Below are positions 203-27,019 of a stretch of 33,654 nt of DNA, piece by piece. Every line of letters starts with the position of its first letter. The first letter of the stretch is position 1. Source of the DNA: Opitutia bacterium. Lineage in GTDB: Bacteria > Verrucomicrobiota > Verrucomicrobiae > Opitutales > Opitutaceae. The stretch covers positions 1 to 33,654 of the forward strand of contig CANEVO010000040.1 in assembly GCA_947442255.1 (NCBI GenBank), in the 5' to 3' direction. The notes beneath the pieces were generated by a model. That model saw nothing but the letters and a program-made list of their open reading frames with translations. It had not been told where the DNA came from and did not search any database. The position numbers were made by a program, and so were the translations under genes.

Positions 203-1537
203 TCAGCGCCGGCGTTCCGGCGGCAGCGTCTCAATCAATTCGTTTGGCCGACCCGATCGTTTCTTCAGCGTGAAGCTGTCGTACAGCCGGCCGGTGGCGG
301 TCCGGGCCTGATAGCGGAGTTCGTCGCCGTCGATCGCGATGACCTGGAAGAGTTGCGTGTCCTCGGCCGTCCGCACCGCCCAGGAATCGTTCGCCAGATC
401 GTACATCTTCGGCCCGCTGACCGAGACCACATAGACGCTGCCGATCGCCGGATCGTAGACCTGGCTGTAGCCGCTCTTCACGTTGGTCGTGCCGACGCGG
501 AGGTGCGCGGGCACTTCGCCGCTGCGGGCATAGGTGTGATCGTGGCCGGTCAGGACGAGATCGACCTTGAACTCATCGAGGACGGGCTTCCACAGCTCGC
601 GCAGCTTCGCGTTGTCGCGATCCCGCGCCGGCGAAAACAGCGGGTGATGAAAGGTCACCACCGTCCAGCGCCCCGGATTGCGGGCGAGCACATCGCGCAG
701 CCACGGGACCTGCTCAGCCTGGCGCTCATTGGAGTTCAGCGAGACAATCCGCGTGCCTTGGTAATCGAAATAGTAACTGGTTTCGGGCAGCTCCGCCGGG
801 CCGTTTTCCGGCAGGGCGAACTGGGGCGCCCAGTGCCGGCTCAGCTGGCGCGGCGACTTTGAGTCGTCCTCCACCGCATTGGCATACTCGTGGTTGCCCG
901 GCGTGGGGACGACGGGGATGGTGGCATTCACCCAGGCGGGGGCGCCGAACCACTCGCCCCATTGGGCGTCGCGGTTCGCGTTGTTGATCAAGTCGCCGGC
1001 ATGCAGCGTGAACGCCGCGCGTGGCGACTCACGAAACGCCTCGCGAAACACCCGCGACCAGTGCGTTCGGATGTCGTTCTGCGCGTCTCCGAAGTAAACG
1101 AACGCAAACGGCCGGGCCTCGCGCGCCGCGGTGCGGAAGTGGAACCACTCGCTCCAGTTGACGCCGTCGCCGACGCGATACGCGTAAAGCGTTTCCGGCT
1201 CGAGCCCGGTGAACTCCGCGGTGTGGAAATGCGCCAGCCCGAGATCCGAGGTGAAGGGCGTGGTGGCCGCCGGCGTGGCGATGCCTTGGAGGGAACGGCC
1301 GCTTTCGTTGGCCACGGCAATTTCGGCGTGGGCGTGGGTGACGCTCGGGTCGGTGCGCCACGTCACGGCCTGCGTCGTCGCGGGATCGCCGCGCCAGGTG
1401 AGGACGACGCGGTCGGGTAGCGGTCGAGGGGCGTAGGCGGCGGCGTCGGGGTAGGGTGTCGGAGCGGGGTGCGACGGACTGTCGTGCGCGGCGAGCGTCG
1501 TCGCGAAGGCGAAAAAAGGGATCGAGAGAAATTTCAC
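203..1537 (-). CDS. secreted purple acid phosphatase-like metallophosphoesterase
   Basis: Predicted to release phosphate from organic phosphoesters outside the cytoplasm. The 444-residue protein begins with a hydrophobic signal (about 1-17), then a fibronectin-like purple-acid-phosphatase N-terminal domain (about 42-137) and a calcineurin-like metallophosphoesterase domain (about 145-360). Metal-binding motifs are visible in order: GDAQ 150-153, GD 181-182, GNHE 214-217, HH 297-298 and GHDH 331-334. The open frame extends upstream to 1792 but would overlap the end of the receptor gene; the GTG at 1537 directly precedes the signal peptide, so I take that start, although no clear Shine-Dalgarno is seen. 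It lies 86 nt downstream of the TonB-dependent receptor gene on the same strand and is probably co-transcribed with it. Family assignment is firm; substrate is unknown. Confidence 0.9.
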   Translation of the reverse strand: MKFLSIPFFAFATTLAAHDSPSHPAPTPYPDAAAYAPRPLPDRVVLTWRGDPATTQAVTWRTDPSVTHAHAEIAVANESGRSLQGIATPAATTPFTSDLGLAHFHTAEFTGLEPETLYAYRVGDGVNWSEWFHFRTAAREARPFAFVYFGDAQNDIRTHWSRVFREAFRESPRAAFTLHAGDLINNANRDAQWGEWFGAPAWVNATIPVVPTPGNHEYANAVEDDSKSPRQLSRHWAPQFALPENGPAELPETSYYFDYQGTRIVSLNSNERQAEQVPWLRDVLARNPGRWTVVTFHHPLFSPARDRDNAKLRELWKPVLDEFKVDLVLTGHDHTYARSGEVPAHLRVGTTNVKSGYSQVYDPAIGSVYVVSVSGPKMYDLANDSWAVRTAEDTQLFQVIAIDGDELRYQARTATGRLYDSFTLKKRSGRPNELIETLPPERRR

Positions 1538-1623
1538 GGTGAGAGGAAACGAAAGTGCCGGATCGCGCGCAAGCGGCGCGATCCGGCGATGGTTGGGTGG
1601 GAGGTCGGAGCTGATCGCGGGAA

Positions 1624-4509
1624 TCAGAACCGGAGGCTGAAGCCGGTGGTCGCGCGCCAGGAATACGTGGTGTAGTCCTCGGGGTTGTCGGGGCGCTGAT
1701 AACCCTGATAGGAGATCTGCGGCTCGGCGGTGAGGTTGTTCACGTTGAAGAACAACTTCAGGTTCTGATTCACCTGGTAGCTGGAGTCCCAATTGAGCGA
1801 CTCATAGGCGCCGAAGTAGTCGTCGAAGGTGTTGTCGACATCGAGACCCTCGAGAAAATCGGCGCGGTAGGTGTAGCTGAGCCGGCCGCGGAAATTGCCG
1901 GCCGCGTATTCGAGGGCCGCATTGTAGATCGTGTCGCTGAAGCCGTAGGTCGGCAGCTTCTCGGTGAGCCGGCCGGGATACTTGCCGTCGCTCTCGGTGA
2001 ACGTGCCAGAGAGCGAGACGCTGAACCCGTTGAGCGGCCGGGGCAGGAAGTTGAGCTTCTGGCGCGCGATCAGCTCGAGTCCGTAGTTCACGGCCCCGAG
2101 GGCATTCTCCGAGGTGGAGAAGATGTAGGGCCCGGTGGCATCCGGAATGGGGTAGCCGGCGGCGTCCGTCGTGGTGAACCGGAGCGTGGTGCCGTAGTAA
2201 AAGCCCTTCATCTTCTTGTAGAACAGGCCAGCGGAATAGAGGCCGCCCTTCGGAGTGTAGTACTCGAGCTGGGCATCGAAGTTGTTCGAGGTGGTCTCGC
2301 TCAGGTTCGGATTGCCGCCGGAGATGTTGCCGGTATTCGGATCGAGGTTCAGCCCAGCGACTAGATCGTCGATGTCGGGCCGGGCGTAGCTCCGGTTGTA
2401 GCTGGCGCGGAGGATCAGGTTGGGCCGGATCTCATGCCGCAGGTGCAGGCCGGGCAGCCACATCGTGTAGTCGCGCTCCGCCCGAATGGGAGTCGGCGTG
2501 GCCGGGGTCGCGCTGTTGTAGCGATAGGTGTCGGACTTGAACGTGTTGTGCTCCGCCCGGAGCCCGGCGATGAGGGTGGTGCGGCGCACGGTCAGCGTGC
2601 CCATGAAGTAACCGGCGGCGATGTCCTCCTGGGCCCGGTAGTCGTTAATCACCCCGTTGAGCAGGGCGTCCGTGGCCTGCCGGGCGAAGAGCTCGGGCCG
2701 GCTGGCGAGGAGACTTTCGACCTTCCGGATGTCGGGCTCGAGCAGGAGCGGGATGCCCATCGAGGTGCGCGTGCTCCGGCGCAGCAGGTCCGCATAGGGG
2801 AAGCCGCTGGCACTGGTGCCGGTGCGATAGGTGACCGACGCCTGGTCCTGCTCCTTGGTGTTCGTCCGGTACTTGCCGCCGATCTTGAGCGCGCCGCTGA
2901 GGCCCGCGCCGACGAACTTGCGCTCCCAGTCCAGCTTGGCGCTCGTGGCCTCCTCCGCGCCGTCGCGGGGTGAGAGGGTCAGATCGCCGCGATTGATGGT
3001 CGAGGTGTTGAGCGGATCCTTGCCGTTCAGAATGGTGTACTTCGGATGGGCGCGATCAGTCTGGTCGTAGCCGATGTTGAAGCCCGGATTGCGGACCACG
3101 TAGGCGACGCTGCGGTCGCGGTTCGACTCGTTGGTGGAGCGGAAGAGATCGAGCGTGATCGTGTCGGCCTGCCGCTCGAACTTGCCGCCCAACGAAGCGC
3201 CGTAGACATCGTTGTCCGTCTCGATCTGATCGTTCTGATAGCGGATGTCGTTCAGGACATTCGGCGCGCTGCGGCCCGTGTTGTAGGTCGCCTCGGCAAT
3301 GCTCTTCGTGCCGGTGGCGCTCCCGAAACTGTGATTCGAATTGATATAATAGCGATTCCGGGGCTTCTCGGACACCACCCGGTTGTGGCTGTAGAAGGGC
3401 CGGAAGTAGAATGTGGCGCCCGTGCTGGCCCGAAAGTCGAGGGAGAGGTTTGCCCCCTGCGCCTCGGTGTCGCGGAAGTTTGTCTGGGGCGTGCCATTGG
3501 TGTGAAAGTACATCGGATCCGTCAGCCCGAGGGCCGGCTCGTTCGCGGGCCGCAGCAGCGCGTAGTCCTTGTCGAGGTTGTCGTAGTCGCGCGCGGTCTT
3601 GTGTCGCGTGAGCGTGAGGCTGAGGCCGAGGTTCTTCTCGCCGCCGCCCACGCTGTACAAATCCAGGTAGTTCAGGCCGGTGTCGTAGTCCCATTTGCCA
3701 TACTTGTCGTAATAGACTCCGCTGCCCGTGAGTTCGATGGTGCGGCCGTCGCGCTGGAAGGCGGAGCGGGGGATGACGTTGATGATGCCGCCGATGGCGT
3801 CGCCGTCACGATCCGGTGTCGCCGCCTTGATCACCTCGATGTTGCTGATCCCGTCCGCGGTGAGCTGGCCGGTGGAGAAGGCCCGGCTGTTGTCGGAGGT
3901 CGGCATCCGGTTGCCGTCGATCTGGAAGGAATTATACTTCGCCTCCAGCCCGCGGATGTTCACCCCGCTCGGCGTGCCATCCTCGTCCTCGTTGACCGAG
4001 AGCCCGGGGAGTTGCTGGAGCGTGTATCCGATGTTGCCATTCAGCATCGGGCCGAAGGTCTCCTCGGAGACGATGTTCACGATGCCACTGGCGGTCTTCT
4101 GCTGGTTAATCGCGAGCGCCTGCCCGCGGACGGAGGAGGCGACGGTGAACGCCTCCATCTTCAAGGCCGCGCCCTCGAGCGGTGTGTTGACGAGGGTGAC
4201 GCCGGAGCCCGTGACGGTGACCTCGCGGGTCTGCGCATCGAGGCCGACGTATTCGATCCCGACCTGCTGCATTCCGGCCGGAATGCCGGACAGGACAAAG
4301 CGGCCGTCGGCGTCGGTGTAATCGACGGCCGTGGTGCCGACGACGCGGACAATGGCGCCCTGCAGCGACTTGCCGGTGGACGCGTCCGAGACGCGGCCGG
4401 CGATCGATCCCGTGGCCTGGGCCAGGGCGGAGGCCGCAACGCCCGCCACGAGGATTAGGCTGGCGCACGCCCGCAGCGCGCGTCGACCGGAAGAAGAGAA
4501 CAGGTTCAT
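1624..4509 (-). CDS. TonB-dependent outer membrane receptor
   Basis: An outer membrane active transporter energised by TonB. The 961-residue protein has a signal peptide (1-30, ending ALA-Q), a carboxypeptidase-regulatory-like beta-sandwich (about 33-115), a 'MEAFTV' TonB-box-like stretch, a plug domain (about 135-250, with 'VNIRGLEAKYNSFQIDG') and a 22-strand-type barrel ending in Phe (GFSLRF), the usual outer-membrane signature. The segment after the TonB box (GQALAINQQKTASGIVNIVS) resembles the Xanthomonas/Caulobacter receptor subfamily. Members of that group often serve carbohydrates or organic phosphates. The phosphatase gene follows 86 nt downstream, so an organic phosphate ligand is a reasonable inference, not shown. 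The pair is bracketed by copies of one dispersed repeat. Confidence 0.93.
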   Translation of the reverse strand: MNLFSSSGRRALRACASLILVAGVAASALAQATGSIAGRVSDASTGKSLQGAIVRVVGTTAVDYTDADGRFVLSGIPAGMQQVGIEYVGLDAQTREVTVTGSGVTLVNTPLEGAALKMEAFTVASSVRGQALAINQQKTASGIVNIVSEETFGPMLNGNIGYTLQQLPGLSVNEDEDGTPSGVNIRGLEAKYNSFQIDGNRMPTSDNSRAFSTGQLTADGISNIEVIKAATPDRDGDAIGGIINVIPRSAFQRDGRTIELTGSGVYYDKYGKWDYDTGLNYLDLYSVGGGEKNLGLSLTLTRHKTARDYDNLDKDYALLRPANEPALGLTDPMYFHTNGTPQTNFRDTEAQGANLSLDFRASTGATFYFRPFYSHNRVVSEKPRNRYYINSNHSFGSATGTKSIAEATYNTGRSAPNVLNDIRYQNDQIETDNDVYGASLGGKFERQADTITLDLFRSTNESNRDRSVAYVVRNPGFNIGYDQTDRAHPKYTILNGKDPLNTSTINRGDLTLSPRDGAEEATSAKLDWERKFVGAGLSGALKIGGKYRTNTKEQDQASVTYRTGTSASGFPYADLLRRSTRTSMGIPLLLEPDIRKVESLLASRPELFARQATDALLNGVINDYRAQEDIAAGYFMGTLTVRRTTLIAGLRAEHNTFKSDTYRYNSATPATPTPIRAERDYTMWLPGLHLRHEIRPNLILRASYNRSYARPDIDDLVAGLNLDPNTGNISGGNPNLSETTSNNFDAQLEYYTPKGGLYSAGLFYKKMKGFYYGTTLRFTTTDAAGYPIPDATGPYIFSTSENALGAVNYGLELIARQKLNFLPRPLNGFSVSLSGTFTESDGKYPGRLTEKLPTYGFSDTIYNAALEYAAGNFRGRLSYTYRADFLEGLDVDNTFDDYFGAYESLNWDSSYQVNQNLKLFFNVNNLTAEPQISYQGYQRPDNPEDYTTYSWRATTGFSLRF

Positions 4510-4705
4510 GTTTGGTTGGTAGTGACCGCGGTCTGCCGCTCACGTCGAACGGAGCATCCTGCGATCGGGACCAGTGATAACCCGGGCGGATGTCGGTCCC
4601 GTGGAGGTTGCGCAACGATTCGGTTACAACAGCTCCGCGGAAAAGCGTATCGTTAAACCGGATTCAGGACGACCCAAACGTCCGCGCCGAATCTCCCGGA
4701 GTTGA

Positions 4706-4800
4706 CAGGATGGACAGGAAGCAATCGGAGGAGCGACAGGATCGAAGCTGACGGCGAACGCCGGTCAATCCCGGCTCGTCTCCTGTTAATTCTGTCAAAA
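4706..4800. repeat. dispersed GGACAGGAT/ATCCTGTCC repeat element, copy 2
   Basis: The first 27 bases are identical to 43-69 and the last 33 closely match 146-178, in the same orientation as copy 1. Copies 1 and 2 therefore flank the receptor-phosphatase pair as direct repeats about 4.6 kb apart. Confidence 0.75.
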
Positions 4801-4830
4801 ACCTGAATCCGAAACTTCCCCATTCAGAGA

Positions 4831-4940: not shown

Positions 4941-4970
4941 GAATGTAACGTGATCGCCGCGGGTTTGGCA
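4941..4970 (+). promoter_or_regulatory. GAATGTAAC box with following CGCGGGTTTGG
   Basis: GAATGTAAC (4941-4949) is followed by CGCCGCGGGTTTGG (4956-4969). The same two words occur upstream of the methyltransferase (11419) and TPR (12335) genes. It lies about 74 nt before the GTG of the glycosyltransferase. TAAC also sits two bases before that GTG. It is a candidate promoter or regulator site, identified only by recurrence. Confidence 0.35.
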
Positions 4971-5016
4971 CCGGGATCTGTTTTCCTGCGGGAATATCCG
5001 CCGCGCTTTCTAACCC

Positions 5017-6177
5017 GTGAAAATCGCCCTCATCTCAGAAACCTTCCCGCCCGAGATCAATGGCGTGGCGATGACCTTCGGCGTGATTGCGCGCCAGCTC
5101 GGCGCCCGCGGACACACCGTGACCGTCTACCGCCCGCGGCGCGACGATCTCCCCGCGGGGGAGACGCATCCGGAGTTCACCGAGATCCCGCTGCCGGGCC
5201 TGCCGATTCCGGGCTACCCGCAGTTGCGCCTTGGGTTCCCGGCGGGCGGGCGCCTCCGCCGCTGTTGGACCGCGGATCGCCCTGATCTTGTTCACGTCGC
5301 CACCGAGGGGCCGCTGGGCGCCTCGGCGATCGGGGCTGCCCGCGCGCTCGGAATTCCTGTTACCTCTAGCTTCCACACCAACTTCCACGCCTACACCCGG
5401 CACTACGGGTTCGGGATCGCCCACCGGCCGGTGCTGGCCTGGCTCCGGTACGTTCACAATCGCACCTGCCGCACGTTCGTCCCGACCCTGGAATTGTGTG
5501 CCGAGCTTTCTTCGCTCGGCTTTCGCGGTGTCACGCTGCTCTCACGCGGCGTCGATACCTGGCAGTTTCATCCCGCCCGCCGCGCGGAGGAGCTGCGGGC
5601 CCGCTGGAAGGCCGATTCCGATGACCCGGTCGTGATTCATGCAGGGCGCATGGCGGCCGAAAAGAACTACGGGCTGCTCTTCCGCTGCTTCGCGGCGATG
5701 CGGCAGGCCAATCCGCGGTGCCGTTTCGTACTGGTGGGCGACGGCCCCCTGCGGGCGCGCCTGCAGCACGAGCACCCCGAGTGTATTTTCACCGGCTTCA
5801 TCCCGCGCGTCGACCTGGCCCGGCACTACGCCTCGGCGGACATCTACATTCACGCCAGCCTGACCGAGACCTTCGGCAACGTGCTCACCGAGGCGATGGC
5901 CAGCGGGCTCGCGGTGGCGGGCTTCGACTACGCGGCGGCGCGCCAGTTCATTCGTCATGGCGAGAACGGCCTGATCGTCGCGTGCGATCAACCGGCGGCC
6001 CTGGTGGACTCCGCGGTGTACCTGGCCACCGACCCGCTGCTGCGCGCGCAACTGCGGCCGGCGGCCCGCGCCGTGGTGGAGGCGCAATCCTGGGATCGGG
6101 TGATCGTCCGCTTCGAGGCCGATTTGATCCAGGCCGCCGGGCTTCCGTCGTCGGCATCTGAACCGGGTCTCGCGTGA
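5017..6177 (+). CDS. GT4-family glycosyltransferase, probable glycolipid synthesis
   Basis: A retaining GT-B glycosyltransferase of 386 residues. The N-terminal Rossmann domain opens with MKIALISETFPPEINGVA (1-18), typical of the subgroup that includes plant/cyanobacterial sulfoquinovosyltransferase SqdX/SQD2 and mannosyltransferases acting on lipids. The C-terminal domain has the sugar-nucleotide motifs HAGRMAAEKN (208-217), the conserved GDGPLR (241-246) and the E-x7-E pair (E284, E292). Length is normal for the family. The start is GTG at 5017, beginning directly with the first beta strand. It is the first of four genes that overlap by 4 nt (GTGA here), and the company of a diacylglycerol glucosyltransferase, a lipid kinase and a PlcP-like enzyme argues for transfer of a sugar to a membrane lipid. 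Donor and acceptor cannot be read from the sequence; an LPS or capsule role is possible. Confidence 0.88.
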   Translation: MKIALISETFPPEINGVAMTFGVIARQLGARGHTVTVYRPRRDDLPAGETHPEFTEIPLPGLPIPGYPQLRLGFPAGGRLRRCWTADRPDLVHVATEGPLGASAIGAARALGIPVTSSFHTNFHAYTRHYGFGIAHRPVLAWLRYVHNRTCRTFVPTLELCAELSSLGFRGVTLLSRGVDTWQFHPARRAEELRARWKADSDDPVVIHAGRMAAEKNYGLLFRCFAAMRQANPRCRFVLVGDGPLRARLQHEHPECIFTGFIPRVDLARHYASADIYIHASLTETFGNVLTEAMASGLAVAGFDYAAARQFIRHGENGLIVACDQPAALVDSAVYLATDPLLRAQLRPAARAVVEAQSWDRVIVRFEADLIQAAGLPSSASEPGLA

Positions 6178-7367
6178 ACGCCCGCATCCTGATTCTCACC
6201 GCGGGTTTCGGCGAGGGGCACAACGCCGCGGCCCGGGCGCTGGCGGCGGCGTGCGATGCGCAGGGCGGTCCGGGAACCGCCCGGGTGGTTGACGCCTTTG
6301 CCCTGGCGGCACCCCGGATCGACGCGATCGCCCGCTGGATCTATCGCCTGCTGATCACGCGGGCCCCCGGACTGTGGAGCCTGTTCTACCGCTGGCTCGA
6401 CCGGTCGTCATGGGCGGAGCGGTTGATGGATTTGCTCGCCGGAGAGCGGCGCGTGCTCGACCGCATCCTCCGCGAGGAGCGGCCCGAGTTCATCTGCAGC
6501 ACTTATCCGGTGTATGCGTTTCTGCTGCAGGGACTGGGTGCCGCGGGCCGGCGGCTGCCGCGGTACTACAATGTCGTCACCGACTCGATCAGCATCAATT
6601 CCCTCTGGTGGCGCGCCGGGGCCGCGGGTTGGTTCGTGCCCAACGCCGACTCGGCCGAGGTGATGATCGCGGCCGGCGTCGACCGGACCCGGATCCATGT
6701 GCTGGGCTTTCCGGTCACGGATTACTTTTTGCGCCATGGCGCCCAGCTGGGCCCCGGGGAAATCTCCGCGGCCAGTCCGCCCCGGGTGCTCTGTATCGTC
6801 AATGCGGGCACATCGGCCGCGGCGGACATGGCCCGCCGGCTGCTGACCGACACGGACTGGGAGGTCACCTGCACGGTGGGTCGCAATGCCGCCCTCGAGG
6901 CGGAACTCAGCCAGCTGGCCGGCGCCCGGCGGCCGGTGACGCGCATCCTCGGCTGGACCGACCGGGTTCCGCACCTGCTCCTCACGCACCACGTGGTGCT
7001 CAGCAAGGCGGGCGGCGCCACCACGCAGGAGGCACTCGCCGCCCGGTGCCCAATGATCGTGAACCAAATCGTCCCCGGCCAGGAGGAAGGAAACTACGAA
7101 TTGCTGCGCCGGCACGGCATCGGGGCGCTGGCGGAGACGCCCGCCGCGATGCTGGGAACGCTCGACCGGGCCTTTGCGAACGAGGGTGCCGTGTGGCGCC
7201 AGTGGCGGACCGCGCTGGCCGCGCTTTCGCGGCCGGGTGCGGCGGGAGCCATTGCGGAGTTTCTGCTGGGTCCCGCCGCGCGCACTTCGGCGGAGCCGGA
7301 GCCGGTGCCGATGCCGTTCCGACCGGAACGCGAGGCGCGTCCCGCGCCCCAGGAGGCCCGCGAATGA
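6174..7367 (+). CDS. MGDG synthase/UgtP-like diacylglycerol glycosyltransferase (GT28)
   Basis: Predicted to move a hexose from a UDP-sugar to diacylglycerol, making mono- or di-glycosyldiacylglycerol at the inner membrane face. The 397-residue protein has the MGDG-synthase N-terminal motif LTAGFGEGHNAAA (8-20), the VVTDSISINSLWW segment (134-146), and the GT28 C-terminal donor-site motifs KAGGATTQEA (278-287) and VPGQEEGN (300-307), close to those of UgtP and plant MGD. A short Pro/Glu/Arg-rich tail (about 365-397) is unlike the family core. The GTG start overlaps the previous stop in GTGA (6174-6177), and its own stop overlaps the next start, so translation is probably coupled. MurG-like enzymes share the fold, but the N-terminal motif favours the diacylglycerol group. 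Confidence 0.88.
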   Translation: MNARILILTAGFGEGHNAAARALAAACDAQGGPGTARVVDAFALAAPRIDAIARWIYRLLITRAPGLWSLFYRWLDRSSWAERLMDLLAGERRVLDRILREERPEFICSTYPVYAFLLQGLGAAGRRLPRYYNVVTDSISINSLWWRAGAAGWFVPNADSAEVMIAAGVDRTRIHVLGFPVTDYFLRHGAQLGPGEISAASPPRVLCIVNAGTSAAADMARRLLTDTDWEVTCTVGRNAALEAELSQLAGARRPVTRILGWTDRVPHLLLTHHVVLSKAGGATTQEALAARCPMIVNQIVPGQEEGNYELLRRHGIGALAETPAAMLGTLDRAFANEGAVWRQWRTALAALSRPGAAGAIAEFLLGPAARTSAEPEPVPMPFRPEREARPAPQEARE

Positions 7368-8308
7368 AGACGCGTTTCATCTTCAATCCGCACTCCGGAC
7401 ATAATCGGCGCCGTCCGGCCTTCGCCCAAACCATCCGGGACTTCATCGCCCGGCACGGGATCGAGGCCGATTTCTGGATCACGGAGGGCCCGGGGCACGC
7501 GACGGCACTGGCCGCCCAGGCGGTGGAGCAGGGCTATGGCGTGGTCGTGGCCGTGGGTGGCGATGGAACAATGAACGAGGTGGCCCAGGCGCTGATCGAT
7601 GCGCCGACGGCGCTCGCGCTCGTGCCCTGCGGTTCCGGCAACGGACTGGCCCTGCATCTCGGCGTGCCGCTGGCGGCGCCGCGCGCTCTGTCGCTGGCGA
7701 CCGGCCTGGGCAGCCGGATTGTCGCAATCGACACCGGCCGGGCCAATGGGAAGCCGTTCTGCAATGCTATGGGCCTCGGCCTCGATGCGGAGGTCAGCCA
7801 TCGGTTCAACCGGCTCACCCGCCGGGGCCTGCCGGCCTACGCGCGTATCGCGGTGGGCGCCCTGCGGTCCCTGCACGGGGAGACCTGCACGATCGTGGGC
7901 GACGGACACCGGGAGACGATCGATGCCCTACTGATCGCGGTGGCCAACTCTGATCAATACGGCAACAACGCCCGGATCGCCCCCGGGGCCCGCGTCGATG
8001 ACGGGCAGCTCGATCTGGTGGCGATTCGGCCGGTGGGTCTGATCGGGGCGGTGGGACTCGGGGCGAGACTCTTCCTCGGCACGATCGACCAAAGCCCGCA
8101 CGTGCGGCGGCTGCGCGGCGTCCGGTTCCAGATCGAGCGCCGCGCTGCGGGATTGATTCACACCGACGGCGAGACCCACGCCACGGGTCCGGTCGTCCTC
8201 GTCGAGGTCAACCCGCGCAGCCTCCGCGTGCTCCTCCCGGCCGCGTCGCCGGTGGCTCTCCCCGTCACCCGGCCCCTCGCGGCGGCGCCGGCCCTACACT
8301 CTTTATGA
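7364..8308 (+). CDS. diacylglycerol kinase-family lipid kinase
   Basis: A 314-residue member of the DgkB/YegS/sphingosine-kinase-like family, which phosphorylates diacylglycerol or a related lipid with ATP. Visible motifs are FNPHSG (7-12), the nucleotide-binding GGDGT (65-69) with following MNEVAQAL, and GSGNGLA (90-96); a second beta-sandwich domain follows with NAMGLGLDAEVS and the late TDGE motif before the C-terminus. The ATG at 7364 is chosen over an upstream open frame because AGGAGG (7351-7356) lies seven bases before it and because it overlaps the previous stop as ATGA. The stop overlaps the next gene's ATG in the same way. In context it would recycle diacylglycerol to phosphatidic acid, or balance the glycosyltransferases; the direction of lipid flow is inference. 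Confidence 0.9.
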   Translation: MKTRFIFNPHSGHNRRRPAFAQTIRDFIARHGIEADFWITEGPGHATALAAQAVEQGYGVVVAVGGDGTMNEVAQALIDAPTALALVPCGSGNGLALHLGVPLAAPRALSLATGLGSRIVAIDTGRANGKPFCNAMGLGLDAEVSHRFNRLTRRGLPAYARIAVGALRSLHGETCTIVGDGHRETIDALLIAVANSDQYGNNARIAPGARVDDGQLDLVAIRPVGLIGAVGLGARLFLGTIDQSPHVRRLRGVRFQIERRAAGLIHTDGETHATGPVVLVEVNPRSLRVLLPAASPVALPVTRPLAAAPALHSL

Positions 8309-9108
8309 AGCTGAACGTCCGCACCGTGATTATTTCCGACGTCCATCTCGGCACGTCCGACTCGAAGGTGAACGAGGTGAATCACTTTCTCCGGCACACC
8401 CGCTGCGCCAAGTTGATTCTGAATGGTGACATCATCGACGGCTGGCAGCTCACGCGCAGCGGGCAGTGGAACAAGGCGCACACCCGGTTCGTCCGGATCG
8501 TCCTGAAGAAACTGGAGAAGAAGAACACCGAGGTCGTGTATCTGCGCGGAAACCACGACGACATTCTCTCCTCCTTCCTCCCACTCGCGTTCGAGAATCT
8601 CAGCATCGTGGAAGAGCACATTCACGAGGGGCCGCGCGGCCGCTACCTCGTGCTGCATGGCGACGTGTTCGACGTGGTGACGAAGAACTTCGTCTTCCTC
8701 GCGCACCTTGGCGACTGGGGCTACCGGGTCCTGCTCACCCTCAACCGCCTCTACAATCTCTGGCGGTCGTGGCGGGGCAAAAAGTACTGGTCGCTCAGCA
8801 AGGCGATCAAGGCGCGGGTGAAGAAGGCAGTGAACCACATCTCCAACTTCGAGGAGCACATTGCGCAACTCGCCCGGCAGCGCGGCTGCATTGGCGTCAT
8901 GTGCGGTCATATTCACACCCCGGCGGACAAGATGATTGGCGACGTGCACTACCTGAACACCGGCGACTGGGTGGAATCGCTGACGGCCGTCGTCGAGCAC
9001 TGGGACGGCCGGTACGAGTTGATCGATTTCGCGCACTTCCTGCACCAGTTCCCGATGGCCCCGGACGCCGTCGAGGATGCGTCCGAGGAAATGGCCGCGG
9101 CGACCTGA
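8305..9108 (+). CDS. LpxH/PlcP-like metallophosphoesterase (phospholipid or UDP-diacylglucosamine hydrolase)
   Basis: A 267-residue calcineurin-like phosphoesterase of the group commonly annotated UDP-2,3-diacylglucosamine diphosphatase. Metal ligands are visible: D12-x-H14 (SDVHLGT), D42 (GDIIDGW 41-47), N83-H84 (RGNHDD), H118 (LHGD) and H202-x-H204 (CGHIH). Several stretches (GDIIDGWQL, YWSLSKAIKARVKKAVN, NTGDWVESLTAVVEHWDGR) match, as I remember them, the Sinorhizobium-type PlcP group, a phospholipase C that turns phosphatidylcholine or phosphatidylethanolamine into diacylglycerol under phosphate limitation. Its position behind two glycosyltransferases, one of the diacylglycerol type, supports that reading: it would supply diacylglycerol for glycolipid synthesis. 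Classical LpxH activity in lipid A synthesis remains possible. Start ATG at 8305 overlaps the kinase stop. Confidence 0.88.
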   Translation: MKLNVRTVIISDVHLGTSDSKVNEVNHFLRHTRCAKLILNGDIIDGWQLTRSGQWNKAHTRFVRIVLKKLEKKNTEVVYLRGNHDDILSSFLPLAFENLSIVEEHIHEGPRGRYLVLHGDVFDVVTKNFVFLAHLGDWGYRVLLTLNRLYNLWRSWRGKKYWSLSKAIKARVKKAVNHISNFEEHIAQLARQRGCIGVMCGHIHTPADKMIGDVHYLNTGDWVESLTAVVEHWDGRYELIDFAHFLHQFPMAPDAVEDASEEMAAAT

Positions 9109-10120: not shown

Positions 10121-10783
10121 TCAGGATTTCGAATATTTTTCGCGAGCCCGGACCTGCACGAGCGTGCGGCCGGGAAGAATACAGGCCGTGAGATGTCCGC
10201 CGTAGACGCAGCCGGTGTCGATCCCGAGCGACCAACGCTCGCGAGCGGGCTCCGGCCGCGGGGTGTGGCCGTAGATGACGAAGGGTGGACCCTGCCACTG
10301 CGCGGACCAGTGCGGGGCGGCGGGATACTCGGAGCGCTTGTACGGCTGGCCGTCCGGGCCGACGACCTGGATGCGCGTTACAACCCGCGCGGGTTGCCCG
10401 CGCCAGGGCCGCCCGGGCAGGAAGCCGCCGTGGACCAGCACGGTGTCGGCGTCCGGCACCTGGCGGGTGATAGGCATGGACTCGAGATAGGCCCAGTCCT
10501 TCGCCCGGAGTTGCTTCAGCGTGTCGTAGTCGTACTTCTTGAGGTGCGTGGGATCCCCTGTGCGACGGTAATTGAGCAGGCGGAGCTCGTGGTTGCCGAG
10601 CAGCGCGCAGTGGGTGTGCGCCCGAGCCAGGTCGAGGACGCGGGCGCTGTCGGGGCCCCGGTTGACGAGATCCCCGAGCAGCACAATCCGATCGCCCCGG
10701 CCGGGCTTGAGTGCCTGCAGCAGCTCCTCGAATTCCGTCGCGCAGCCGTGGATGTCGCCGATGACGATCGTCCGGTCACTCAT
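10121..10783 (-). CDS. ApaH/PPP-family metallophosphatase
   Basis: A 220-residue cytoplasmic phosphatase of the serine/threonine-protein-phosphatase/diadenosine-tetraphosphatase fold. All PPP signature motifs are present: GDIHG (9-13), GDLVNRGPDS (37-46), GNHE (63-66), VHGG (near 116) and GHT (near 172). The length and the start at the first motif fit bacterial PrpA/PrpE/ApaH-like enzymes. It may hydrolyse dinucleoside polyphosphates or phosphoproteins; the sequence does not decide between them. No signal peptide, so it differs from the exported phosphatases in this window. It heads a two-gene minus-strand unit with the 91-residue protein. Confidence 0.9.
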   Translation of the reverse strand: MSDRTIVIGDIHGCATEFEELLQALKPGRGDRIVLLGDLVNRGPDSARVLDLARAHTHCALLGNHELRLLNYRRTGDPTHLKKYDYDTLKQLRAKDWAYLESMPITRQVPDADTVLVHGGFLPGRPWRGQPARVVTRIQVVGPDGQPYKRSEYPAAPHWSAQWQGPPFVIYGHTPRPEPARERWSLGIDTGCVYGGHLTACILPGRTLVQVRAREKYSKS

Positions 10784-11039
10784 CGTGCGAAGCCGCGGAA
10801 CCAGCTTCCGACGGAAGAGAGCACCCGGCCCGGCGAGAAAGAGAAGGCGGTGGAGGCGGGCATGGTCGTGCCGGACGGTCGGGTGCGTCGCGGATTGAGA
10901 CGAGGCGATAGCGGCTCCGTCACCGAAATGTTACCGGGGGCAAGTGCCGCCTGGAGACCACGGCGAGGCAGGCTGGCTGCTTCGCAAACCCAAGGGTTTT
11001 TATGCTGGGGTTGGACGGGCCTTTTTTTGGTCGGTCGCG

Positions 11040-11184
11040 TGCCATTGTCACGAACTTGTTAACTCCCACAAAGAGCGATCGCTGAATTGAACGGATCGAA
11101 TCCTTCGCGCGTCTGCCCCCATGTTCATAGTTTTGTGTGTGACAGGTCATACGGGGCCGCCCAGGGATGGGCGGCCTCTTTTTT
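11040..11184 (+). ncRNA. candidate small RNA ending at an orphan terminator
   Basis: A textbook intrinsic terminator ends this stretch, yet no plus-strand coding gene lies between 9827 and the terminator. A short transcript starting somewhere after about 11040 is the simplest explanation (TTGTCA occurs at 11045). The 5' end is not defined and no known RNA family is recognised; tmRNA and tRNA were considered and rejected. It could instead terminate a longer unannotated transcript. Confidence 0.3.
11155..11184 (+). terminator. strong rho-independent terminator
   Basis: A perfect 8-bp stem GGCCGCCC / GGGCGGCC with loop AGGGAT is followed by TCTTTTTT. The minus strand has no T-run after the hairpin, so it acts on plus-strand transcription. 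It is the clearest intrinsic terminator in the window. Confidence 0.85.
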
Positions 11185-11473: not shown

Positions 11474-12295
11474 ATGATGATTGAACCGGAAGGGAGCGTC
11501 GGCGTCCAAGGCGGGGCGGAAGGGATCGTAAACTACTTCACCGCGCCGGAGTCGGCCCGGCGTTACGCCACGGGCCGCCCGAGTGGACACGCGCGCGTGC
11601 TCGAGGTGTTGCAGCGTGAGCTGGCGTCCCACCTGCCGGTGGAGCGGGCCTTGGACGTCGGTTGCGGCACGGGGCATTCGACGGTCGCGCTGCTGCCCTA
11701 TGCGCGGGCGATCGTCGGGGTCGACTCGTCCTCCGAGATGCTGGCGCAGGTGCCTCGGGCGCCACGGATCGAGTACCGCAAGGGTTATGCGGAGGATCTG
11801 CCCTGCCGCACGGAAGACTTCGAACTCGTGACGGTGAGTTCGGCGTATCATTGGTTTGATCACGATCGCTTTCTCACTGAGGCCGCCCGGGTGCTGCGAC
11901 CCGGCGGCTGGCTCGTCCTGTACAAGGCGGGCTCCATGGGCCGGTTGCCCAGCCGGCCCGACTTCGAGTCCTGGCGGCGCGAGGTCCTGAATCTCCGCTA
12001 TCCCAAAGTGGCCCGGAACGATGAACCGCTCACGACGGCGCAGGCTGAGCGGTTCGGGTTCACCGAGGTGATGATGGAAGCGCTGCCTTATGCGCAGCAG
12101 TACACCCTGGAGAGCTACGTGGAGAATCTCATGACCCACAGCCGCATCATCCGCGTGGTCGATGGGGGGCACGAGCCCTCGGGCGCTGCGCGCGCCTGGC
12201 TGCGCGCGGAGCTTGCCTGGTTCTTTCCTCCGGAGGGGATCGAGTTGATCCACGAGGCCCGGATTCACGTGCTGCGCCGGCACGCGCGCGCCTGA
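11474..12295 (+). CDS. class I SAM-dependent methyltransferase
   Basis: A 273-residue Methyltransf_11-type protein. S-adenosylmethionine motif I is DVGCGTGHS (61-69), followed by the acidic-loop motif VDSSSEML (83-90), the post-II segment LPCRTEDFELVTVSSAYHWFD and motif III RPGGWLVLYKAG. Such proteins (UbiE/BioC/Tam-like) methylate small molecules; the substrate cannot be told. The C-terminal half contains an aromatic-rich cap. Two consecutive ATG codons (11474 and 11477) are possible starts. An upstream open frame back to 11087 runs through repeats and the terminator and is not used. No obvious functional link to neighbours, but its upstream box is shared with the next gene. Confidence 0.88.
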   Translation: MMIEPEGSVGVQGGAEGIVNYFTAPESARRYATGRPSGHARVLEVLQRELASHLPVERALDVGCGTGHSTVALLPYARAIVGVDSSSEMLAQVPRAPRIEYRKGYAEDLPCRTEDFELVTVSSAYHWFDHDRFLTEAARVLRPGGWLVLYKAGSMGRLPSRPDFESWRREVLNLRYPKVARNDEPLTTAQAERFGFTEVMMEALPYAQQYTLESYVENLMTHSRIIRVVDGGHEPSGAARAWLRAELAWFFPPEGIELIHEARIHVLRRHARA

Positions 12296-12334
12296 GCCGG
12301 CCACCGCTCAACGGCCAACCGGACGATGTTGCGC

Positions 12335-12357
12335 GAATGTCACGCCCGCGGTTTGTG
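12335..12357 (+). promoter_or_regulatory. shared upstream box before TPR gene
   Basis: GAATGTCAC then GCCCGCGGTTTGTG nearly duplicates the box at 11420. It is about 55 nt before the TTG start preferred for the TPR protein, the same distance as in the methyltransferase gene, which supports that start over the ATG at 12326. Confidence 0.4.
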
Positions 12358-15343: not shown

Positions 15344-16444
15344 CTAAGGTCTCCCGGTCGATTTCAAGTCCGCGCCGGCGAGATCGGCCCAGGCGTAGAA
15401 GTGGAACACCCGGCCATGGGACATCGCCACGAAGAGCCCGCCCGGAAAAACCGGCGAGAGCGCGGCCGAGGTGACATCGCAGCCGTCGCTTTCAAGTGTG
15501 GCGAGCGGAACGATCTTCCGCAGGGGATGGTCGTGGGGCCGGCCCGCGATGCCCTCGCGCGGGAAGACGCGAAACGTGTTGCTCTGCTGATCGGACACGA
15601 GGACGTAGCCGGTGCCGTTCGGAAATTTATAGATCGAGATGCCCTCGCGGTCCTCGGTGAAGCCGTCGCGGCCGAAGACCGCCAGTTCCTCGTCGGCGTC
15701 GTCGGCGGCCGGGTCGGCGTGGTATTTCCGGATGCCGTAGTTCTCGTCGCTGTAGTACACGTAGCCGAGTTCGTTATCCACGGCGATGGCCTCAATTTCC
15801 TTCTGTCCGCTCCAGGTGCCGAACGAGCGCGTGAAGATCGCCCGGATCGTGCCGGTGCCGTCGTCGACGAGTCGATATTGATGCAGATAGCCCTGGCGCG
15901 GCGCCTGGTAGTCTGAGCGGCTGACGAGGGCGAAAAGGGCGCCGTCTGAAGCCCGCGTGTAAAGGGCGACGCCCATGCCGTCGCGGGCGAGTTCGTCCTC
16001 AAAGATCGGCAGCCCGCCGCCGTCCACGGGTGCCATGTCCGGCAACCGGTAGACGCGCAGACGGTGGGCGTAACGCTCCGTGACCACGGCGAGGTCGACC
16101 TTTCGGCCGCCGAGCATGACGTCGTAGGCGACATCGACATTGTTCGGACGGACGAGGCCGCGAATGACCTTGTCGCGATGAATTTTGCCATCGAGGCCGA
16201 AGACATAGAGCGCGCCGTCCGCGTCCTTGTCGGTGCCGAGCACGAGGCTCGCGGCCGGGTGGGCCCGGTTGATCCAGATGGCGGGATCGTCCGTGTCGTG
16301 CTTGGTCGGCTCCGTGATCACGCGCGGCTGAATCGATTCCGCTGCGGCCATCGGAGGGCCGGCGAGGACGGCGAGAACGGCGGCGAGGAGGAACGCAGCC
16401 CTGGGCTGGCGGCGCGTTCGACGTGAGCGAGAAATTCCGGGCAT
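15344..16444 (-). CDS. secreted beta-propeller phytase
   Basis: A calcium-dependent 3-phytase that removes phosphates from inositol hexakisphosphate. The 366-residue protein has a basic N-region and hydrophobic signal (about 1-36, cleavage after AAA), then a six-bladed propeller of normal length. The two phytase signatures are present: D-TDDPAIW (50-57) and NNVDV (101-105), plus the acidic calcium-site stretches GTDKDADGALYVFGLDG, EIEAIAVDNELGYVYYSDEN and EDREGISIYKF. It starts with ATG at 16444, and its upstream region carries a TGTCAC/GTGACA dyad. It is divergent from the amidohydrolase-inositol dehydrogenase pair. Family assignment is strong; phytase activity itself is inferred. Confidence 0.93.
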   Translation of the reverse strand: MPGISRSRRTRRQPRAAFLLAAVLAVLAGPPMAAAESIQPRVITEPTKHDTDDPAIWINRAHPAASLVLGTDKDADGALYVFGLDGKIHRDKVIRGLVRPNNVDVAYDVMLGGRKVDLAVVTERYAHRLRVYRLPDMAPVDGGGLPIFEDELARDGMGVALYTRASDGALFALVSRSDYQAPRQGYLHQYRLVDDGTGTIRAIFTRSFGTWSGQKEIEAIAVDNELGYVYYSDENYGIRKYHADPAADDADEELAVFGRDGFTEDREGISIYKFPNGTGYVLVSDQQSNTFRVFPREGIAGRPHDHPLRKIVPLATLESDGCDVTSAALSPVFPGGLFVAMSHGRVFHFYAWADLAGADLKSTGRP

Positions 16445-16520: not shown

Positions 16521-16538
16521 TGTCACCGCGATGTGACA
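16521..16538. promoter_or_regulatory. Pho-box-like dyad TGTCAC-6-GTGACA
   Basis: A perfect inverted repeat whose plus strand also reads as two TGT(C/G)AC words 11 bases apart, one DNA turn, followed by a further CTGTCGATTGTCG. PhoB-type sites are direct TGTCA-like repeats at an 11-base period, so this is a candidate response-regulator site about 77 bases upstream of the phytase start. The family's binding site in this phylum is not known to me. Confidence 0.4.
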
Positions 16539-16548
16539 ATGAGCTGTC

Positions 16549-16570
16549 GATTGTCGCAGACACGGCAATC
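16549..16570. promoter_or_regulatory. imperfect dyad GATTGTCG / CGGCAATC
   Basis: Seven of eight pairs match around a CAGACA centre. It lies 10 bases from the TGTCAC dyad, in the same divergent control region. Confidence 0.3.
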
Positions 16571-20258: not shown

Positions 20259-20283
20259 GGGGTGAGAGGACCGGCCGAAGCTG

Positions 20284-25236: not shown

Positions 25237-26304
25237 TCAGGATCCGAAAAGCCGGCCCAAACGGACCAAGGCATACCCCAGAATGCCGGTGATCGGAATC
25301 GTCAGCACCCAGGCCCAAATGATGCGTTCGACGACGCCCCATTTGACGGCGCTGAAACGCTTCGAAGCGCCGACGCCCATGATCGCGGTGGAAATGACAT
25401 GGGTGGTCGAGACGGGGATGCCTTCGCGGGCGGTGATGTGGAGGATGAGGGCCGCGGTGGTCTCGGCGGCGAAGCCATGGACGGGCTGCATCTTCACCAT
25501 CTTGTGTCCCATCGTGCGGATGATTCGCCACCCGCCGGCGGCGGTGCCCGCCGCCATCGTCAGAGCGCAGGTGATGATGACCCAGAACGGGACCGCCTGG
25601 AACTCTGTCACCCGGAGGAAGGAGGCCCAGTGGGGCAGGCTGTCGAAGGCGCCCGTCGAGGTGCCGCTGAAGAGCGCAAGGGTGATGATCCCCATTGTTT
25701 TTTGGGCGTCGTTCGAGCCGTGCCCGTAGCCCATGAAGCCGGCGCTAAGGAGCTGGGCTTTGCCGAACACTGAATTCACCCAGCGTGGCGTGGCACGGTG
25801 CAAGCACATCGTCAGCAGCCACATCAGGACGGCTCCCGCCACGAAACCGATCAGGGGCGAGCTGAACATCGGGAGCACGACCTTGGGCCAGAGCCCGATA
25901 TGCGCGCCCTTGGCGTCGGTGGTGGACCAGACCAGCACGTCCCAGTTGCCCTTGGCGGTTGCGAGGGCCGCCCCGCACAGGCCGCCAATCAGCGCATGGC
26001 TCGAACTGGACGGCAGGCCCAGCCACCACGTGAAGAGATTCCAGATGATGGCGCCCAGGAGAGCGCAGAGGATCGTTAACATGTTGACGGCCGTCGGCTC
26101 GACGAGGCCGCCGCTGATGGTCTTCGCGACGGCGGTGCCGGCGAGTGCGCCGATGAGGTTCCAGAAGGCCGCCCACATCACGGCCTGCCGGGGCGTCAGG
26201 ACCTTGGTCGAGACCACGGTGGCGATCGCGTTCGCGGTGTCGTGGAAACCGTTGATGTACTCGAAGACAAGCGCGGCGAACAGAACGAGCAGAAAGAGCG
26301 TCAT
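25237..26304 (-). CDS. pit: PiT-family inorganic phosphate transporter
   Basis: A low-affinity, ion-coupled phosphate permease of the inner membrane. The 355-residue protein has about ten hydrophobic helices and the duplicated PiT signatures: NGFHDTANAIATVVSTK near the N-terminus and GHGSNDAQKTMG in the second half, plus PSSSSHALIGG and GIPVSTTHVIS. Length is at the short end for the family, typical of bacterial forms paired with a DUF47 protein. The DUF47 gene lies 73 nt upstream on the same strand, the usual arrangement. Confidence 0.95.
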   Translation of the reverse strand: MTLFLLVLFAALVFEYINGFHDTANAIATVVSTKVLTPRQAVMWAAFWNLIGALAGTAVAKTISGGLVEPTAVNMLTILCALLGAIIWNLFTWWLGLPSSSSHALIGGLCGAALATAKGNWDVLVWSTTDAKGAHIGLWPKVVLPMFSSPLIGFVAGAVLMWLLTMCLHRATPRWVNSVFGKAQLLSAGFMGYGHGSNDAQKTMGIITLALFSGTSTGAFDSLPHWASFLRVTEFQAVPFWVIITCALTMAAGTAAGGWRIIRTMGHKMVKMQPVHGFAAETTAALILHITAREGIPVSTTHVISTAIMGVGASKRFSAVKWGVVERIIWAWVLTIPITGILGYALVRLGRLFGS

Positions 26305-26377
26305 GAAGTCAGGCGGCGGGAGCGCCGATCTCGGAACGGTTGATCGCCGCGCCGGAAGGAAATGACTTTCCGCCGGA

Positions 26378-27019
26378 TCATGAATGCTTCAGCACGATCT
26401 GCACCACAATGTTGCCGGCGTTGCGGCAACGGTCCACCGCCTGCTCGACCATCTCGTAGAGCTCCTGGAGGATGACGAGTTCCTTGGCGTCGTACGGGCC
26501 ATGGTAGAGGTCTTTGAGGAGCATGAGCATGACCTTGTCGGCCTCGCCTTCGGCGAATTGCAGCCGGTCGTTGGCCTCACGAATTTTCTCGATGGTGGTG
26601 CCGCCGCGGAGCTGCCTCACCATGAAGGACACCGTCTCGACGGCCTGGAGCATGAGCTCGGCCTGGCGCTCGAAGGCGGCATTCGGGACGCGGCCGGGAT
26701 AGATCGAGAGCCGTTCCACGATTTTTTCGACCTGCTTGGGTATGCGGTAGAGGGCGAACGATAAAGCCTCGATGTCCTCGCGCTCGAGGGGGGTGACGAA
26801 GGTCTTGCTCAGCTCCTCGATCAGAGTCGCCCGAATCCGCTTCTCCTTGCGGCGGGTCTGAATGAACTCGTCGAGCGTCGCCGCGCTGGTGCCGCCGGCG
26901 GCGATTTTTTTCAGGTAGCTCGTAAAGAGATCGACACTGGTCTTGGCCTCCTCGGCGCCGGCCTCGAGGAGGTCGAAGAACTTGTCGTCCTTTCCGAGCA
27001 GTTTCTTGAGGGAGAGCAT
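26378..27019 (-). CDS. DUF47 PhoU-like Pit accessory protein
   Basis: A 213-residue all-helical protein of the DUF47 family, related to PhoU and usually encoded with PiT transporters, where it modulates transport. Recognisable segments are KDDKFFDLLEAGAEEA near the start, ETVSFMVRQL, and the metal-binding-type EGEADKVMLMLLKDLYHG and YEMVEQAVDRCRNAGNIV at the end. Length is typical. It precedes pit by 73 nt, a gap holding a GGAAA/TTTCC hairpin (about 26351-26375), and follows the ElyC-like gene by 49 nt. Confidence 0.92.
   Translation of the reverse strand: MLSLKKLLGKDDKFFDLLEAGAEEAKTSVDLFTSYLKKIAAGGTSAATLDEFIQTRRKEKRIRATLIEELSKTFVTPLEREDIEALSFALYRIPKQVEKIVERLSIYPGRVPNAAFERQAELMLQAVETVSFMVRQLRGGTTIEKIREANDRLQFAEGEADKVMLMLLKDLYHGPYDAKELVILQELYEMVEQAVDRCRNAGNIVVQIVLKHS

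Follow-up and report, generated by a model that had tools for sequence, protein, structure and literature searches.

A phosphorus gene neighbourhood beside the predicted end of phoR in an Opitutia bacterium, and its probable place in a Pho-regulon island

Genes and features of the window

Here we describe a 33.7 kb stretch of DNA (66% G+C; the window) from contig CANEVO010000040.1 of an Opitutia bacterium of the family Opitutaceae, in which 26 genes were placed. The original prediction had seen in it a neighbourhood of genes for acquiring and sparing phosphorus. Sequence searches against Pfam, NCBIfam and PDB, from which the gene identities come, recovered in place all the phosphorus genes that had been named, and our results suggest that the window is probably the right-hand flank of an island belonging to the phosphate (Pho) regulon. 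Of the 31-letter words sampled from the window, 48% are also present in G001, the closest genome compared. A PlcP-like protein 97% identical to that of the window is encoded on its contig L001 (uncultured Opitutae bacterium UppL3_bin-435). The genes and repeats that matter here are the following (PAP, purple acid phosphatase; TBDT, TonB-dependent receptor; DGK, diacylglycerol kinase; MGDG, monogalactosyldiacylglycerol; SAM, S-adenosylmethionine; TPR, tetratricopeptide repeat):

1..4, + strand: predicted phoR stop codon ('atga'), by alignment to the kinase stop in L001; the phoR body lies outside the window
43..178, no strand: dispersed repeat copy 1, with direct repeats 43-79 and 139-178 that match 4706-4742 and 4761-4800 at 95% and 90%
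206..1537, - strand: PAP-like metallophosphatase, likely exported (Metallophos, PF00149, 6e-20; Pur_ac_phosph_N, PF16656, 3e-19)
1627..4509, - strand: TBDT (TIGR01782 over cut-off)
4704..4801, no strand: dispersed repeat copy 2, with a further partial copy at about 4831-4898
5017..6177, + strand: GT4 glycosyltransferase, first gene of the glycolipid operon (Pfam GT4/GT1; the two best NCBIfam names are lipid glycosyltransferases, all under cut-off)
6174..7367, + strand: MGDG-synthase/UgtP-type glycosyltransferase, GT28 (PF06925, 1.7e-15)
7364..8308, + strand: YegS/BmrU-type lipid (diacylglycerol) kinase, DGK (TIGR00147, 131.6 bits; cut-off 118.65)
8305..9108, + strand: PlcP-type (PlcP/LpxH-like) metallophosphoesterase (metal motifs, homologs, context)
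10124..10783, - strand: ApaH/Pnkp-like metallophosphatase, ApaL (PF00149, 4e-19)
11477..12295 (start 11087 or 11477), + strand: SAM methyltransferase (PF08241, 5e-21)
12326..13276, + strand: TPR protein, between the methyltransferase and PhoD (Pfam)
13386..14972, + strand: PhoD-type exported phosphodiesterase/phosphatase (PF09423, 3e-116; PF16655, 1e-34; PDB 2yeq, 581 bits)
15347..16444, - strand: beta-propeller phytase (PF02333, 1.7e-38; PDB 1qlg/1cvm, 1.6e-28)
25240..26304, - strand: PiT-type phosphate transporter (PF01384, 2.6e-97)
26381..27019, - strand: DUF47/PhoU-like partner of PiT (PF01865, 2e-6, just over cut-off)

The left edge of the window seems to be the end of phoR, the gene of the phosphate regulon sensor kinase. 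In G001, positions 34-1218 of L001 encode a 395-residue PAS-HisKA-HATPase sensor kinase immediately 5' of GT4, and the PnpS and PhoR models of NCBIfam are within its top three matches, every one of them under the curated cut-off. Since positions 1-103 of the window align to L001 positions 1218-1326, that is, from the kinase stop onwards, bases 1-4 of the window would contain the stop codon of the kinase gene.

Between this predicted phoR end and GT4 the window carries the TBDT-PAP pair, and L001 has no gene in that gap. The pair had been described as a purple acid phosphatase beside a TonB receptor. Both genes are there, with the expected domains, but the word purple had to be dropped. The phosphatase matches solved plant PAPs in PDB (E 3e-9), and its metal-motif blocks are kept in the 8 aligned sequences (window and seven relatives). 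In all 8, however, the tyrosine of the GDxxY motif, which is the ligand that gives purple acid phosphatases their colour, is replaced (GDLIN, GDLVN or GDLID). Because both PAP domains are present while this tyrosine is replaced, we name the gene PAP-like metallophosphatase; judged from these motifs, it would be a purple acid phosphatase by domain architecture only. The two genes are likely co-transcribed. A PAP ortholog (~70% identity) was found in 13 relatives, and a TBDT 68-71% identical to that of the window accompanies the PAP ortholog on its contig in all 7 relatives mapped. In 9 of the 13 the PAP ortholog shares a contig with PlcP (G018, G021, G024, G009, G015, G022, G007, G012 and G020; in the last three PAP or PlcP is truncated by the end of a contig), and in G008 the two lie on separate long contigs. 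The placement of PAP relative to PlcP varies, being upstream and divergent in some relatives and downstream and convergent in others; G018 and G021 share the divergent TBDT-PAP/GT4 layout of the window (G021 as judged by PAP-TBDT and GT28-PlcP).

No PAP match was obtained at E<=0.001 in G001, a genome estimated to be 94% complete. Copies of the dispersed repeat flank TBDT-PAP on both sides in the window (43-178 and 4706-4800), and L001 positions 1258-1352 align to the repeat. The simplest reading of these alignments is that the TBDT-PAP cassette may have been gained or lost at the repeats, in either direction. Note that the repeat belongs to an intergenic family, TCCTGT[TC][AC]ATCCTGTC, with members in the window at 43-178, 4704-4801, 4831-4898 and 9158-9223.

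The presence of a PlcP/LpxH-like phosphoesterase in a glycolipid operon was confirmed: GT4-GT28-DGK-PlcP spans positions 5017-9108 on the + strand. The substrate of GT4 is probably diacylglycerol, as its best family names suggest, and in PDB the GT28 protein matches a processive diacylglycerol beta-glucosyltransferase (3e-22) and plant MGD1 (1e-14). The metallophosphoesterase motifs of PlcP (DxH, GDxxD, GNHD, HGD and GHxH) are intact in all 15 aligned members (17 in total, the fragments from G019 and G020 being excluded). In G019 (C190:75964-76618) the PlcP gene was matched in two pieces, contains a TAG and has no 3' part; this is possibly a decaying copy or an assembly error.

All four genes of the operon are present in 16 of the 22 loci retrieved with the PlcP protein, and the other six are without one or more of them, two (L007 and L020) being at contig ends; this predicted membrane-swap operon is common within the genus. 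In other Opitutaceae genera GT4 adjoins PlcP in 7 of 7 loci, GT28 being missing in G121, G117, G111 and G078 and the kinase in G129 and G100. In the 7 loci fetched from other families PlcP lies beside pst without a glycosyltransferase like those of the window, and GT4 was beside PlcP in none of them. From these loci it follows that the pst-PlcP link is broader than the GT4-PlcP pair, which in turn is broader than the four-gene operon.

The Tat-exported PhoD and the beta-propeller phytase also held up. PhoD is full length, with both PhoD_N and PhoD domains and a twin-arginine start seen in the sequence; against NF058638 it scores 672 bits, under the cut-off of 1000. The order methyltransferase-TPR-PhoD is kept in G005 and also, over two abutting contigs, in G001. 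The phytase scores under the cut-off of NF045638, and its propeller identity comes from homology to the Bacillus phytase. A single large operon was rejected because the strands alternate and several promoters are required, so the genes are spread over several transcription units, as had been proposed.

Linkage to the pst-pho operon and candidate Pho sites

The strongest link to phosphate regulation came from the relatives. In G005 and G013 the GT4-MGDG-DGK-PlcP genes lie directly after porin-pstS-pstC-pstA-pstB-phoU-phoB-phoR (the G005 genes were typed by Pfam). PlcP is present in 25 of the 38 relatives, 23 of which also have PstB over its curated cut-off (the exceptions are G001 and G022). 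On the same contig and within 33 kb the two were found in 10 of these 23, when ~0.36 were expected under random placement, and within 16 kb in 6 of 23 (0.17 expected). In a class-wide draw of 113 genomes, 50 had PlcP (E<=1e-40) and 47 of those had PstB over cut-off; 12 of the 47 had both within 16 kb (~0.56 expected), and extending the distance to 33 kb added none (1.15 expected). These 12 genomes come from five families (f1, f20, f23, f31 and f43). Over the two samples and two distances the linkage exceeds expectation by ~10- to 35-fold, in a test that treats genomes as independent though they are related and in which G001, G023 and G035 are in both samples. Several of the misses stem from short contigs and were still scored as misses.

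The remaining phosphorus genes recur around the same core. Orthologs of the phytase share the PlcP contig in G009, G015, G020 and G019 and adjoin PhoD in G001; in G025, G080 and G100 genes of the pho operon have PiT and DUF47 as neighbours, and in G046 they have PiT alone. Polyphosphate kinase 1 (ppk), which is not in the window, adjoins PlcP or lies within ~2 kb of it in G005, G009, G015, G020 and G025 (identity by Pfam typing of the G009 member). Thus PAP, phytase, PhoD, PiT/DUF47 and ppk appear, vanish and rearrange, yet they recur next to the operon and the pst core. Composition is conserved and order is not, as expected for a functional neighbourhood rather than for one operon. The gene-order comparison across Verrucomicrobiota that the original prediction called for therefore returned no fixed order, but it did return the same phosphorus genes beside the same core, including the phosphate regulator operon. 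The relatives carry what defines a phosphate-related genomic island, namely pst-phoU-phoBR with phosphorus-sparing and phosphorus-scavenging genes in variable content; the window shows the phoR end only.

Candidate Pho sites were sought with a two-unit matrix (units near [CT][CT]GTCAC, 11-bp spacing), trained on the porin promoters of 8 relatives with the window excluded. The candidates in the window are:

4601..4629, - strand: candidate Pho box for TBDT-PAP, 3 degenerate units (E=0.087)
4943..4971, + strand: candidate Pho box for the glycolipid operon, 3 degenerate units with 11-bp spacing (E=0.104)
10917..10934, + strand: second candidate Pho box in the ApaL/methyltransferase intergenic region (matrix match)
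11045..11062, + strand: best candidate Pho box of the window, 5' of methyltransferase-TPR-PhoD (shuffle p=0.002)
16522..16550, - strand: candidate Pho box for the phytase, divergently shared with the M20 amidohydrolase (shuffle p=0.002)

The five best matrix matches in the window are all intergenic and coding matches start at rank six. The best sites are those at 11045 and 10917 before methyltransferase-TPR-PhoD, at 9251 downstream of PlcP and at 16539/16520 before the phytase; in G005 a comparable site lies in the gap from ppk to the methyltransferase. Shuffle tests covered 15 intergenic regions with two statistics each (30 tests), and the smaller p of each pair is quoted: 0.002 for ApaL/methyltransferase and for phytase/M20, 0.008 for TBDT/GT4, 0.03 for PlcP-o91 and at least 0.13 for the others, except CoaBC-PanC.

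In the relatives, upstream regions reached E<0.05 for the porin (8/10; 7 of these 8 are training sequences), pstS (3/7), TonB receptors (10/18), ppk (3/3), the methyltransferase (3/4), the phytase (2/4, the window and G001), phytase-like genes (3/3), PiT (0/3), DUF47 (1/4) and ApaL (2/5, both shared with the methyltransferase). Among 57 upstream regions of non-phosphorus, non-island families 7 reached this level, and all 7 are the far side of a divergent promoter (phytase twice, TonB receptor twice, porin, phytase-like and GT4). Before the 57 were counted, four families whose role is unsettled had been grouped with the phosphorus and island genes, namely GH3-like genes (2/2 at E<0.05), an abhydrolase (1/4), a second TonB receptor (1/4) and F15 (0/1), and so had the inner pst/pho genes. 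Note that some divergent sites were counted from both sides, and that gene starts are approximate, most so for the promoters of other genera. In those genera 5 of 7 GT4 promoters gave a smaller p of the two of <=0.028, as did two porin promoters, in shuffles that preserve base composition only; the GT4 promoters of G117 and G078 and the pstS regions of G129 and G100 did not reach p 0.028. Judged by these scores, the GT4 site appears weak but recurrent, and we read PAP and PhoD as probable downstream genes of TBDT and the methyltransferase, respectively. The shared PhoB-type site that had been suggested as a check was thus found, as a candidate, at methyltransferase-TPR-PhoD and the phytase and, more weakly, between TBDT-PAP and GT4. 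It was not found at PiT/DUF47 in the window.

This last result and the absence of the pair from G001 make PiT/DUF47 more likely a housekeeping low-affinity importer, although the genes themselves are as predicted. Contig L149 of G001 is continuous between the points that correspond to the 3' end of PiT (window 25300) and the YdcF-like gene's end (window 27069), with the junction at L149:4664-4665; PiT/DUF47 is missing between 98%-identical flanks, and no PiT match was found elsewhere in that genome. Since G001 has neither TBDT-PAP nor PiT/DUF47, island content shifts even between genomes that are 97-98% identical. Pho control of PiT/DUF47 and of the ApaH-like gene was rejected, as neither has a site of its own in the window and the scoring ApaL rows share the methyltransferase region; the exception is one DUF47 row, in G025, which scores E=0.04.

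The predicted ApaH-like phosphatase exists as a gene, but no ApaH, Pnkp or PrpE model matched it over cut-off. It is a recurrent neighbour of the island without a clear phosphorus role. In relatives it was seen beside phoR (G018 and G021), beside the porin and following PlcP (G013) (L161, L152, L163 and L164).

Several other genes between or beside the phosphorus genes show no obvious connection with phosphorus, namely an M20 amidohydrolase, a Gfo/Idh oxidoreductase, coaX-coaBC-panC-panB, a YdcF-like protein, a sugar ABC importer, an amino-acid permease and a 553-residue protein. The pantothenate, sugar-ABC and permease genes in or near the span are not phosphorus genes. The 553-residue protein (window 23498-25156, next to PiT) is mostly helical and has no Pfam or NCBIfam match; in its AlphaFold model helices predominate and the mean pLDDT is 55. 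It recurs in G001, G005, G019, G024 and G025, usually beside PiT, the porin or phoR, and in the best 120 of its 137 matches the only organism names given are Opitutus, Opitutaceae or Verrucomicrobia. Rfam and tRNA scans of the window gave no matches.

Three further arrangements were observed. G009, G015 and G020 (L171-L176) carry a second exported module of a phytase-like esterase (PF13449), a TonB receptor, a class-V aminotransferase and a phytase, with Pho-type sites 5' of the phytase-like gene. A GH3-like gene and an alpha/beta-hydrolase-like gene (the latter scoring below its Pfam cut-off) are found repeatedly next to PlcP or the phytase (F11/F20; L178:13835-16623, L162, L150 and L175), and their role is perhaps lipid-related. 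In the one plasmid region inspected for gene neighbours, that of Mitsuaria sp. 7 (L179), the genes that come after a PlcP-like gene are ppk1 and a Ppx/GppA gene, an arrangement that echoes the PlcP-ppk neighbourhood of the Opitutaceae relatives.

Proposed role and competing explanations

We consider it likely that the window forms the right-hand side of a Pho-regulon island, in which PhoR-PhoB would control both a scavenging and a membrane arm and PiT/DUF47 would stand outside this control. In support of this, the recurrence beside the pst/pho core and the candidate sites agree with the predicted locus for scavenging phosphate and saving membrane phosphate. From the gene identities, the linkage in relatives and the recurrent candidate Pho sites we infer the regulation, the enzyme products and the direction of flow as follows. 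By synteny, the porin-pstSCAB-phoU-phoB operon and phoR would lie just left of base 1. Low phosphate would be sensed by PhoR with Pst/PhoU, and PhoB would then activate the promoters listed above. Outside the cell, TBDT-PAP, PhoD and the phytase would release phosphate from organic esters, with uptake via the porin and Pst. In the membrane, PlcP would cleave phospholipid to diacylglycerol with release of phosphate, and GT4 and the MGDG/UgtP-like enzyme would turn the diacylglycerol into sugar lipids. The lipid kinase may act as a return valve, sending surplus diacylglycerol back to phosphatidic acid. Beyond PhoB control, PiT/DUF47 would provide low-affinity uptake.

Several observations weigh against this interpretation. 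Both phoB and pst lie outside the window. In G001 phoR alone was seen, at a contig edge, and PstB over cut-off was not found; in G005 the best-match names of PhoB and PhoR fall short of their curated cut-offs. PlcP and PstB are separated by ~2 Mb in G117, a complete genome, and by 160 kb in G078, and the nine f17/g28 genomes that have both genes never have them close together. Among the 38 relatives only G005 has PhoD on the PlcP contig (the two contigs are abutting in G001) and only G005 and G023 have PiT there, and in the other Opitutaceae genera just 1 of 7 loci (G094) has the complete four-gene operon. Regarding the sites, none in the window survives strict correction over the 30 tests, and the CoaBC-PanC gap also gives a nominal p of 0.042. 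The GT4 site is degenerate (E=0.10 in the window), with 1 of 10 rows at E<0.05 and 7 of 10 at <0.11; PAP-linked receptors reach E<0.05 in 2 of 7 rows (window 0.087), PAP in 0 of 4 and PhoD in 0 of 2.

A bolder version goes further, and we put it forward only tentatively, as somewhat doubtful. Here the operon would be a Pho-controlled membrane-swap unit that carries its own return valve: mono- and diglycosyl lipids would be made through PlcP, GT4 and the UgtP-like enzyme, the kinase would reverse the exchange, both directions would be attached to phoBR, and TBDT-phosphatase cassettes would be swapped by recombination at the dispersed repeats.

The first rival is that the glycolipid operon is an envelope operon, for lipid A or a constitutive glycolipid, in which the LpxH-like enzyme genuinely hydrolyses UDP-2,3-diacylglucosamine and the phosphate neighbours are incidental. 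The public names of the homologs are indeed LpxH or UDP-2,3-diacylglucosamine diphosphatase, the latter being the annotation carried by the plasmid homologs; PRK05340 matches at 40 bits and the LpxH model TIGR01854 weakly matches the PlcP gene in 5 of the 38 genomes. Moreover, the glycosyltransferases could produce constitutive sugar lipids, and the Pho site of GT4 is weak. However, none of the 38 relatives has a TIGR01854 match over cut-off (one of 14 control genomes does), and the best match of the window protein to a solved LpxH is just 23.5 bits, against at least 200 bits to PlcP-like homologs with 44-50% identity on proteobacterial and Parabacteroides plasmids (among the matches listed, 15 of 31). 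LpxI was found in 35 of the 38 genomes, including G001 (none from G006, G020 and G027), so the LpxH step of lipid A is already covered. On these three grounds we rejected LpxH for lipid A, and with PlcP linked to pst across families we regard the envelope explanation as a whole as unlikely. Context and exclusion argue that the LpxH-like enzyme is a putative PlcP, dispensable for lipid A.

Quite improbable, in our opinion, is that TBDT-PAP, PhoD and the phytase serve to scavenge carbon, iron or inositol, the neighbourhood being a hot spot for exported-enzyme modules. This would fit the breadth of the TBDT family TIGR01782, the very variable gene order and the presence of TBDT-PAP in some close relatives and not in others, with dispersed repeats at its flanks. 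Against it, the same phosphatase types recur by pst/PlcP in several arrangements, and the PhoD unit, the phytase and, if weakly, TBDT-PAP are preceded by Pho-type sites. A last rival is that phosphatase genes, common in a genome rich in them, have come together by chance. The PAP-like matches in 28 and the PhoD-like matches in 27 of the 38 relatives (many of them distant and elsewhere in the genome) would lend this some colour, but we rejected it as hardly credible given the PlcP-PstB excess, even though the genomes counted are related and not independent.

We thus retain the Pho-regulon island. If it is true, a regulator-linked locus that unites scavenging and membrane phosphate saving would be a single genetic marker of this strategy in Verrucomicrobiota, and it opens to direct test the question of whether a Verrucomicrobium replaces phospholipids with sugar lipids under phosphate starvation.

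Comparison with known systems

Our literature search on Verrucomicrobiota returned a noted PlcP homolog only, with no lipid-remodelling study and no description of an island of this type, and the search on Opitutaceae phosphatases returned nothing on point. A paper of 2015 had pointed out the homolog (PMC4796936), and in verrucomicrobial methanotrophs no PlcP was found (PMC9239053).

The Escherichia coli-type LpxH belongs to the same metallophosphoesterase superfamily as the PlcP-like protein; the similarity is weak, and LpxI can take the lipid A step here. In the plcP-agt and plcP-glycosyltransferase operons of marine heterotrophs and methanotrophs, PlcP is likewise found with lipid glycosyltransferases, with putative Pho boxes in front (PMC4796936; PMC9239053). 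There the exchange of phospholipids for glycolipids is known by deletion and heterologous expression and the glycolipid products were demonstrated. The Opitutaceae order differs, as plcP is last in GT4-GT28-DGK-PlcP, a lipid kinase is inside, and the operon is attached to phoBR in relatives.

In Flavobacterium johnsoniae the label PhoBR operon is given to OprP, PhoR and PhoB together with a TonB receptor and a pf04101 glycosyltransferase (PMC8115612). In the phosphate-depletion table of that paper, whose column heads are not visible in the part available, the induction values are 5.42 for the glycosyltransferase, 8.02 for the TonB receptor and 8.59 for PlcP. As in the Opitutaceae, the glycosyltransferase is PhoBR-linked and receptors adjoin phosphatases, and there both the glycosyltransferase and PlcP are listed as rising on phosphate depletion. 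The differences are that PlcP is an orphan gene in F. johnsoniae, that OprP (-1.3) and PhoR (0.76) are not clearly induced, and that its PusCD systems have a SusD-like partner, none of which was seen in the window; DGK and GT4 are not mentioned for that system in the available text (PMC8115612).

There is also a close likeness in gene content to the phosphate islands of the marine alphaproteobacterial HIMB59, which hold pst, phoBR, ppk, LpxH, a glycosyltransferase, a diacylglycerol kinase and phosphatases in variable content (PMC10734472). They have pstSCAB-phoU and phoR-phoB, larger versions add ppk, an alkaline phosphatase, the LpxH-like enzyme, the glycosyltransferase, the kinase and a methyltransferase, and gene content differs between relatives at one position; that paper classes the glycosyltransferase and the kinase as genes without direct phosphorus function. 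Besides belonging to another phylum, the Opitutaceae have GT4-GT28-DGK-PlcP as one operon, and their island adds TonB receptor-phosphatase pairs, a phytase, an OprO/P-type porin and PiT/DUF47. Phosphate islands are therefore already known, in HIMB59 and as the PhoBR operon of Flavobacterium, and the present locus is a Verrucomicrobiota variant of them, in which the gene sets of the marine alphaproteobacterial islands and of Flavobacterium recur in a further phylum.

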